Under the pieces are notes generated by a model. It ran no database searches and was not told where the DNA came from. It was given only the letters and a program-made list of their open reading frames with translations. The position numbers and the translations under genes are program-made. From the NCBI GenBank assembly GCA_032027145.1, contig JAVSMP010000001.1:2919116-2983115 (forward strand): a DNA stretch of 64,000 nt, read 5' to 3'. Source of the DNA: Ignavibacterium sp. (GTDB lineage Bacteria; Bacteroidota; Ignavibacteria; Ignavibacteriales; Ignavibacteriaceae). Of the stretch, positions 20,189 to 58,762 are shown piece after piece; position 1 is the first letter of the stretch, and each line of letters opens with the position of its first letter.

Positions 20189-20220
20189 TCAATTCCTGAG
20201 TCAATTCCTGAGTCAATTCC
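20189..20220. repeat. Short tandem repeat, 12-bp unit
   Basis: The unit tcaattcctgag occurs twice in full and then as an 8-bp partial copy. It lies in the gap-nuoF spacer and interrupts no gene. Confidence 0.85.
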
Positions 20221-20347
20221 TTTATCGGTTCAGGTAACCTTTGTTGGTTGAAACATATTCTAAAAATAAATTATAGAAATTTGATAAACGCCGGAATTTT
20301 TTTTGAATCCCAAAAAATTAGGCTTCAAAAATAACTTGGGTTTAAAA

Positions 20348-43666: not shown

Positions 43667-43684
43667 GGTATTACTTTGTTACAT

Positions 43685-43802
43685 TGATTCATTGTTTCAT
43701 TATATAATTGTTTCATAGTTTCATTGTCGAATTGCTCATTAGGTCTTATGATTAATTTACCTTATTTAAATAACAATTAAGCAATCAAACAATTGAACAA
43801 TG
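43685..43802. repeat. Short direct and inverted repeats (ttgtttcat motif)
   Basis: The spacer between the two PorV/PorQ genes contains several copies of a ttgtttcat/attgattcattg motif at 43685-43735. Inverted versions (caattaagcaatcaaacaattgaacaatg) lie at about 43771-43802. It could fold into an imperfect hairpin. No coding potential. Confidence 0.5.
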
Positions 43803-57787: not shown

Positions 57788-57860
57788 GCGAGCGTAACTC
57801 AGATGGTAGAGTGTCAGCTTCCCAAGCTGAATGTCGCGGGTTCGAACCCCGTCGCTCGCT
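57788..57860 (+). tRNA. tRNA-Gly (anticodon CCC)
   Basis: The acceptor stem GCGAGCG pairs with CGCTCGC. The anticodon stem TCAGC/GCTGA encloses TTCCCAA, giving CCC at 57821-57823. The T arm GCGGG-TTCGAAC-CCCGT is intact and the discriminator is T. CCA is not encoded. Confidence 0.95.
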
Positions 57861-57937
57861 CAATAATATTCTTAAAAATTGTTTTGTTTTATTCTATAAA
57901 AATCTGATATTTGTCCACCAAATTTTGATTGATTTTT

Positions 57938-58012
57938 GGGCGCTTAGCTCAGTTGGTTCAGAGCATCTGCCTTACAAGCAGAGGGTCCGCGGTTCAAATC
58001 CGTGAGCGCCCA
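57938..58012 (+). tRNA. tRNA-Val (anticodon TAC)
   Basis: The acceptor stem GGGCGCT pairs with AGCGCCC, with discriminator A at 58012. The D arm is GCTC/GAGC. The anticodon stem TCTGC/GCAGA encloses CTTACAA, giving TAC at 57973-57975. The T arm CGCGG-TTCAAAT-CCGTG is intact. From 57953 on, this gene is also the first unit of the 124-bp tandem array that follows. It is the only copy with a 5' half and a normal anticodon arm. Confidence 0.95.
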
Positions 58013-58511
58013 CAATTTTTTTTCCCCAGATTGATTTGTTAAGAACTTTAAGTTTGCAATTGATTATTTGAATAATTTGGTTCAGAGCACTCCGATATAA
58101 TCGGAGGGGTCCGCGGTTCAAATCCGTGAGCGCCCACAATTTTTTTTCCCCAGATTGATTTGTTAAGAACTTTAAGTTTGCAATTGATTATTTGAATAAT
58201 TTGGTTCAGAGCACTCCGATATAATCGGAGGGGTCCGCGGTTCAAATCCGTGAGCGCCCACAATTTTTTTTCCCCAGATTGATTTGTTAAGAACTTTAAG
58301 TTTGCAATTGATTATTTGAATAATTTGGTTCAGAGCACTCCGATATAATCGGAGGGGTCCGCGGTTCAAATCCGTGAGCGCCCACAATTTTTTTTCCCCA
58401 GATTGATTTGTTAAGAACTTTAAGTTTGCAATTGATTATTTGAATAATTTGGTTCAGAGCACTCCGATATAATCGGAGGGGTCCGCGGTTCAAATCCGTG
58501 AGCGCCCACAA
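57953..58511 (+). repeat. 124-bp tandem array of tRNA-Val 3' fragments
   Basis: Five units with exact 124-nt period begin at 57953, 58077, 58201, 58325 and 58449; the last is partial and ends about 58511. Each unit runs from the D loop (ttggttcagagc) through the variable loop, T arm and 3' acceptor strand (AGCGCCCA) into a 60-nt T-rich spacer. Units 2-5 look identical. They differ from the real tRNA in the anticodon arm: CTCCG-ATATAAT-CGGAG replaces TCTGC-CTTACAA-GCAGA without a change in length. Units 2-5 lack the 5' acceptor and D strands, so none can fold as a full tRNA alone. Confidence 0.93.
58090..58106. repeat. Palindrome replacing the anticodon arm (first of four)
   Basis: ctccgat-ata-atcggag, a 7-bp stem with 3-nt loop, lies inside unit 2 and recurs at 124-nt spacing at 58214, 58338 and 58462. 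A palindrome with the same core (tccgat/atcgga) stands at 58747-58762. Confidence 0.85.
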
Positions 58512-58551: not shown

Positions 58552-58713
58552 ATGAGCTATTCCGTTTACATAATCTACTCTGAAAAAAATAAGATGTATT
58601 ACATTGGGCATACCAATAACCTAGAAGATAGATTAATTAGACATAATTCCAACTCACTCAATCTCATTTTTTCAAAAGCTCAAATGATATTGAAAAATGA
58701 ATTACACTTTTAA
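58552..58713 (+). pseudogene. Truncated GIY-YIG endonuclease remnant
   Basis: Starting at ATG 58552 the frame reads MSYSVYIIYSEKNKMYYIG and then LEDRLIRHNSN: the GIY (as VYIIYS) and YIG elements and the conserved Arg helix of small GIY-YIG (YhbQ-like, usually 80-100 residue) proteins. After about 33 residues the similarity breaks off and the frame stops at 53 codons, so the region with the catalytic Glu is missing or scrambled. An in-frame extension upstream to 58498 runs into tRNA sequence and is not real. It is followed by a palindrome at 58747. Confidence 0.7.
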
Positions 58714-58746: not shown

Positions 58747-58762
58747 TCCGATACATATCGGA
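58747..58762. repeat. Palindrome tccgata-ca-tatcgga
   Basis: A perfect 7-bp stem with 2-nt loop, 34 nt past the GIY-YIG remnant. Its core matches the palindrome in the tRNA-Val fragment array, so the remnant is bracketed by related palindromes. Confidence 0.8.

Follow-up and report, generated by a model that had tools for sequence, protein, structure and literature searches.

In the 64,000-nucleotide stretch of Ignavibacterium sp. DNA analysed here (the window), an intact tRNA-Val(TAC) gene is continued by an array that probably belongs to a family of tiny, widespread elements at tRNA genes; in the window, the element would have lost its ORF, multiplied in tandem and partly decayed. Judged from sequence comparison, the family is best explained as a GIY-YIG element of the homing type that is tied to tRNA genes and amplified in tandem by break repair, and it is probably selfish. 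A full unit consists of a minimal GIY-YIG nuclease gene of about 85 aa and a fragment of the host tRNA, which lies on the same strand and is interrupted by a palindrome.

The array at tRNA-Val(TAC)

The layout of the array is as follows (all features on the + strand).

57938..58013, +, intact tRNA-Val(TAC), the host gene; sole gene with its anticodon in the genome
58014..58137, +, mini-unit 1: spacer, in which a GIY-YIG gene survives as a 3' stub (58039-58075), followed by the marked tRNA-Val fragment (58077-58137)
58138..58261, +, mini-unit 2: stub 58163-58199, fragment 58201-58261
58262..58385, +, mini-unit 3: stub 58287-58323, fragment 58325-58385
58386..58509, +, mini-unit 4: stub 58411-58447, fragment 58449-58509
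58090..58106, +, palindrome CTCCGATATAATCGGAG of unit 1, in place of the 17-nt anticodon arm
58214..58230, +, palindrome of unit 2
58338..58354, +, palindrome of unit 3
58462..58478, +, palindrome of unit 4
58552..58713, +, truncated GIY-YIG gene of 53 codons, remnant of a full unit; PF01541 positions 2-35 matched

The upstream neighbour of tRNA-Val(TAC) is tRNA-Gly(CCC) (57788-57861). TRF reported a 124-bp period at 57953-58511 with 98% matches and zero indels, and the 61-nt fragments, the palindromes and the spacer stubs are each identical across all four units. The initial annotation had described an intact tRNA-Val(TAC) followed by four identical 124-bp units, and this was borne out by the tRNA call, TRF and the comparison of units. 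Its observation that the anticodon arm is swapped without change in length also stands: each fragment is composed of tRNA-Val nt 16-28, the 17-nt palindrome in place of 17 nt, and nt 46-76. The proposed 5-bp stem with a 7-nt loop had to be corrected, since CTCCGATATAATCGGAG forms a perfect hairpin with a 7-bp stem and a 3-nt loop. In view of this hairpin, which matches the stems of 5-8 bp found elsewhere in the family, the anticodon AUA that had been read from the insert is not a natural reading and was rejected; as a tRNA, the fragment scores 18.6 bits against a cut-off of 29. Its folding is slightly better than that of shuffled sequences (z -2.08, 9/200 as good). No intron family was found in the Rfam scans of the window and tRNA-Val is intact, so that the array does not qualify as a group I intron.

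Several smaller features were noted in the window. A second palindrome, TCCGATACATATCGGA (58747-58762), lies directly 3' of the truncated GIY-YIG gene, is not flanked by tRNA sequence and is possibly a relic of an outer fragment. On the minus strand, repeated spurious ORFs of 71 aa run antisense to the tRNA fragments (58048-58511) and could be mistaken for genes in annotation. Other short tandem repeats occur at 43676-43734 and 20189-20221 (8/24-bp and 12-bp units).

The same tRNA-Val locus was compared in other genomes of the genus. In G002, one short unit like those of the window genome precedes units of 345 bp, which combine this marked fragment with an intact GIY-YIG gene; two such genes are present in all. 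The window spacer matches the 3' end of this gene, and the 124-bp unit is therefore taken to be an internally deleted full unit. An assembly artefact is unlikely, because the window genome is a single contig and the same fragment, palindrome and mini-unit are present in another genome of the genus. In G005, the locus comprises a truncated gene and a single fragment bearing CTCCGATACAATCGGAG; the relic in G004 is of a different type, its hairpins being in the T-loop. Neither a fragment nor a nuclease gene was found at tRNA-Val in G001 and G003; downstream of the tRNA, these empty genomes differ too much from the window genome for the flanks to be compared.

Fragments and nuclease genes at other tRNA loci

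Same-strand fragments were found at 7 of the 43 tRNA genes of the window genome, all seven being the sole genes for their anticodons:

tRNA-Asn: 11 fragments, about 67 bp apart
tRNA-Ala: 1 fragment
tRNA-Pro-TGG: 4 fragments, 114 bp
tRNA-Asp: 5 fragments, 90 bp
tRNA-Pro-CGG: 3 fragments, 317 bp, with intact GIY-YIG genes in the units
tRNA-Ser-TGA: 3 fragments, 323 bp, with intact GIY-YIG genes in the units
tRNA-Val: 4 fragments, 124 bp

The opposite-strand control gave 0/43, and hence the fragments are not due to chance. Two unit variants are mixed in the Asp array, so that arrays are not always uniform. In the ORF-less arrays at Asn (11 fragments), Asp (5) and Pro-TGG (4), the nuclease gene is absent from the fetched stretch. 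The Asn fragments (L297, window genome 328200-330400) are palindrome-marked 5' fragments that lie upstream of the tRNA. Nine TCCGAT..ATCGGA sites were counted in the window genome, of which four are in the Val array, one follows it and four are elsewhere, without a tRNA in the fetched 3 kb. The TCCCGAC..GTCGGGA sites number eight, three in the Pro array and five in the Asp array, i.e. 8/8 within tRNA arrays. On these site counts, a genome-wide palindrome family is unsupported in the window genome.

The anatomy of the fragments was examined in fetched loci that had been chosen for their GIY-YIG genes or as tRNAs of the window genome, and the counts are accordingly not prevalences: 104 of 217 tRNAs carry fragments, and 155 of the 197 fragments have an internal insert. 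Of the upstream fragments, 93/104 begin at tRNA nt 1-3 and stop internally; of the downstream ones, 76/93 begin internally and run to the last bases of the tRNA. The insert lies in the D-loop, the anticodon arm or the T-loop, depending on the locus. After pooling of identical strings and exclusion of inserts that were shorter than 12 nt or contained N, 79 of 127 unique inserts formed a single hairpin better than 95% of shuffles; of the 48 that failed, several consist of two hairpins and some are chains due to chance. The stems of this set hold 810 Watson-Crick, 8 GT, 4 CA and 12 other pairs, and the mismatch types (8 GT vs 4 CA) do not favour RNA. Covariation was measured in two sets hand-picked by insertion type (A2, 11 rows; A3, 10 rows). 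D-loop-type stems covary (0.218 vs 0.088 shuffled and at most 0.139 slid), as do T-loop-type stems (0.508 vs 0.221 shuffled and 0.264 slid); the raw count of pairs changed on both sides is ordinary, since 110 and 66 shuffles out of 500 attain it. At L063 (1866-1920), the anticodon-loop insert of a tRNA-Ser is a larger branched palindrome, with an outer TCCG/CGGA stem and two hairpins.

GIY-YIG matches in seven complete genomes, namely the window genome and six others of its order, numbered 87. When 13 UvrC-like long frames and one contig-end duplicate were left out, the other 73 fell into 44 loci. A tRNA lies within 600 bp of 24 of these 44 small GIY-YIG loci, against an expectation of about 1.5% computed from the tRNA count of the window genome, and the nuclease gene is on the strand of the tRNA in 24/24. 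A fragment match of at least 12 nt was found at 23 of these 24. One further locus, 619 bp from a tRNA, is on the opposite strand and has no fragments; in all, 20/44 loci have no tRNA within 600 bp. Two tRNA-less GIY-YIG genes are embedded in intergenic arrays of other palindromic repeats (GTCACTTTGAGCG.. and CTTCGACTCCGCTC..; L076:1150-2200 and L077:1300-2250), hinting at a wider link between GIY-YIG genes and palindromes.

The initial annotation had called for a search for comparable arrays in the genome and its relatives; these are present in both and also farther afield. Of 118 relatives from a species collection, the best 80 were kept. In 43 of these 80 loci the nuclease gene has a tRNA within 600 bp, again always on the same strand (43/43), and a fragment chain, weak in a few cases, was found at 29 of the 43. 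Record titles include Saccharibacteria, Parcubacteria, Uhrbacteria, Omnitrophota, Zixiibacteriota, WOR-3, Chlorobiota and Bacteroidales; these records are mostly metagenome bins, so single taxonomic placements may be wrong. One named isolate, Salegentibacter echinorum DSM 24579, is in the set. A scan of viral_contigs for a phage source gave 3 weak relatives.

The nuclease has a length of 85-92 aa, and its domain matches are to GIY-YIG/T5orf172 only. PF01541 is above the cut-off in three intact proteins, the window copy being truncated, and among solved sequences UPF0213 proteins come nearest (E 0.0013 and 0.0052). The catalytic residues Y17, R27 and H31 are present in 88/88 rows and E63 in 87/88; overall, Y6, Y17, G19, R27, H31, E63 and K67 are conserved in 86 to 88 of 87-88 rows. 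Synonymous divergence (0.58-1.01) is near saturation and nonsynonymous divergence is 0.13-0.41, with dN/dS of 0.07-0.29 where computable; by these sequence measures, the nuclease is under purifying selection. Beside GIY-YIG, no separate DNA-binding domain was found in the 85-92 aa. Such a domain is common in free-standing GIY-YIG homing endonucleases and is not required; its apparent lack would be unusual for a site-specific enzyme, and lowers, without excluding, the likelihood that the protein belongs to the homing endonucleases. No integrase was found in the element: full units (315-450 bp) hold the GIY-YIG gene, and mini-units hold no ORF of such size. A Y1 (TnpA_REP) transposase is likewise absent, the element proteins matching GIY-YIG.

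A tree of the nuclease was built from 88 rows, the best per locus, out of 138 nuclease hits in 93 loci; many of its forks are weak. Isotypes cluster on it (32 changes vs a shuffled mean of 61.5, 0/200 as low), and the nearest neighbour is of the same isotype in 57/88 rows (shuffled maximum 23). This fidelity may come from enzyme specificity, homology arms or descent. Palindrome class, assignable in 66/88 rows, is clustered too (18 changes vs 39.5 shuffled), which shows, on the sequences compared, that nuclease and palindrome are co-inherited. The arm that carries the hairpin tracks the tree less than isotype does (29 changes vs 38.9 shuffled). One supported clade (100/97) unites Val and Lys elements with a common CTCCGA palindrome, and it was therefore concluded that palindrome and nuclease had moved together to another tRNA.

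Occupied and empty loci

Elements are present at tRNA-Val, Ser(TGA), Pro(TGG) and Arg(TCT) in some genomes of the genus and missing there in others. At Ser(TGA) and Pro(TGG), the flanks of the two states indicate the route of insertion. Ser(TGA) is empty in three same-genus genomes, whose upstream flanks match the flank of the outermost fragment in the window genome (66/73, 66/74 and 67/73; scores 54.5-56.5, shuffled maximum 17.5). Against the flank of the intact tRNA, the same sequences score only 4.0-6.5, in gappy alignments. G005 agrees, with 44.0-50.5 for the outermost fragment vs 7.0-10.0 for the intact tRNA; in G002, only a relic without the 5' part of the fragment is present.

Pro(TGG) was compared within the syntenic Pro-Arg-His-Glu cluster. 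The downstream flank of the empty G005 locus matches the outermost-fragment flank both of the window genome (27/31, score 21.0, shuffled maximum 10.5) and of G002 (26/30, score 18.0, maximum 10.0); against the flank of the intact gene, it scores 4.0 (window genome) and 4.5 (G002). In this cluster, tRNA-Arg is occupied instead in G005 and G003, and G001 has no element at Pro and Arg. The Arg(TCT) flanks fit the outermost-fragment pattern vs G000 and G001 in a comparison that is biased, since about 10 nt of the 32-nt windows belong to the next tRNA.

At Ser and Pro, native flank adjoins the outermost fragment and element DNA adjoins the intact tRNA. These alignments place the element inside the tRNA locus and show the intact gene to be a re-created one. 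We infer that such re-creation is the outcome that break repair from an occupied allele would give.

Possible origins of the arrays

In the homing-type element preferred here, the nuclease would break the tRNA gene at or near the palindrome-marked place, and repair from an occupied allele would copy the element in. Since the rebuilt gene could be cut again, repair against neighbouring copies would add further tandem units, and internal deletions would give rise to ORF-less mini-units such as those of the window. The palindrome, travelling with the nuclease, would be a nuclease-linked mark of the insertion point and may serve in recognition by the enzyme or as a block to re-cutting. Several points count against homing. 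The intact tRNA beside the element remains open to cutting as an uninterrupted target, a cost that should weigh on a single-copy gene, and isotype clustering could stem from homology arms or descent. The 20/44 loci that lack a nearby tRNA, the missing DNA-binding domain, the looser tie of the hairpin arm to the tree, the 48 inserts that failed as single hairpins and the ORF-less arrays with no nuclease gene in the fetched stretch also weigh against it.

The tree and the hairpins can also be read in terms of a system resembling REP sequences and their RAYT transposases, in which the palindromes would be the mobile part, bound and cut as structured DNA by the GIY-YIG protein; tRNA genes would then be acceptable landing sites, since their arms are themselves inverted repeats. 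The two tRNA-less genes in arrays of other palindromic repeats, the covarying stems, the agreement of palindrome class with the nuclease tree and the missing DNA-binding domain all fit this reading; it is nevertheless unlikely, in view of the strong isotype clustering and of the window genome, where all eight TCCCGAC..GTCGGGA sites are within tRNA arrays and five of the nine TCCGAT..ATCGGA sites are in or just after the Val array. Quite improbable is an origin as a by-product of host recombination, by which partial tandem duplications at tRNA genes would be fixed and homogenised by ordinary recombination, with the nuclease genes as passengers and no homing. Unequal crossing-over could yield identical units, the mixed Asp variants, ORF-less arrays and shared homology, but it leaves unexplained the link to the nuclease, the strand rule, the purifying selection on the protein and the movement of a palindrome with its nuclease to another isotype. 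Slippage seeded by a palindrome, as suggested in the initial annotation, could account for the copy number but not for the nuclease link, the strand rule or isotype clustering.

A transcribed, domesticated RNA, in which hairpin-bearing tRNA fragments regulate or protect the tRNA as a decoy or processing signal, is very improbable. It would agree with the strand rule, followed at every locus within 600 bp, with stem covariation and with the slight folding excess of the window fragment; it is at odds with a patchy distribution within one genus, a hairpin that may sit in the D, anticodon or T arm, a sub-threshold score as tRNA and mismatch types without a lean to RNA. The tRNA-like decoy considered in the initial annotation is unsupported, the hairpin being in the D-loop or T-loop at other loci and many fragments being 5' halves. 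There is a still slimmer chance that the transcribed, co-oriented fragment steers the GIY-YIG enzyme to the matching tRNA gene, the hairpin acting as scaffold and the tRNA-homologous part as guide; the nuclease would then have no DNA-binding domain because specificity resides in a nucleic acid. If true, this would amount to a homing element of a new kind, guided by nucleic acid.

Integrative elements at tRNA att sites restore an intact tRNA gene upon insertion and leave a displaced partial copy, and both features recur here. An att-like site at the tRNA 3' end was the nearest of the three options of the initial annotation: at Ser and Pro, the element did enter a tRNA gene, and the intact gene was re-formed. 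In other respects that option does not fit, as the partner is a GIY-YIG gene, units of 67-450 bp are too small for an integrase, the displaced copy carries a palindrome and the same architecture is found at 5' halves as well as 3' halves. REP sequences with RAYT transposases likewise have palindrome classes co-inherited with a small nuclease-type protein; here, the protein is GIY-YIG rather than a Y1 transposase and the palindromes are inside tRNA fragments. Rickettsia palindromic elements also place palindromes within genes, and to our knowledge they have no nuclease gene; in the present family, the palindrome is in the displaced copy and the gene is intact.

The homing-type element preferred here has its closest parallel in phages. 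SegB is a free-standing GIY-YIG homing endonuclease of T-even phages (PMC13096335, PMC2988022). According to the former, SegB and phage recombination genes give rise in phage T6 to tandem 718-bp tRNA-Tyr/segB units, in a nuclease-dependent amplification with recombination at microhomology of the tRNA 5' end and the segB 3' end (PMC13096335). The likeness lies in a GIY-YIG gene adjoining tRNA genes and in tandem amplification of a tRNA and nuclease unit. T4 SegB differs in having 221 aa, against about 85 aa here, and in lying between intact tRNA genes; BLASTP of the element nuclease against it gave no meaningful match. The palindrome-marked tRNA fragment in the unit, the location in bacterial chromosomes and the regeneration of the host tRNA are features of the present element. 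Among open-licence papers, bacterial arrays of this kind were not found by title or by the start of the abstract.

If the homing-type reading holds, minute elements in many bacterial phyla would house in essential, often single-copy tRNA genes without destroying them, as a chromosomal counterpart to the phage SegB case. The family would also explain partial tRNA repeats that are passed over by tRNA finders, and its naturally occurring combinations of nuclease, target gene and palindrome could serve to work out specificity.
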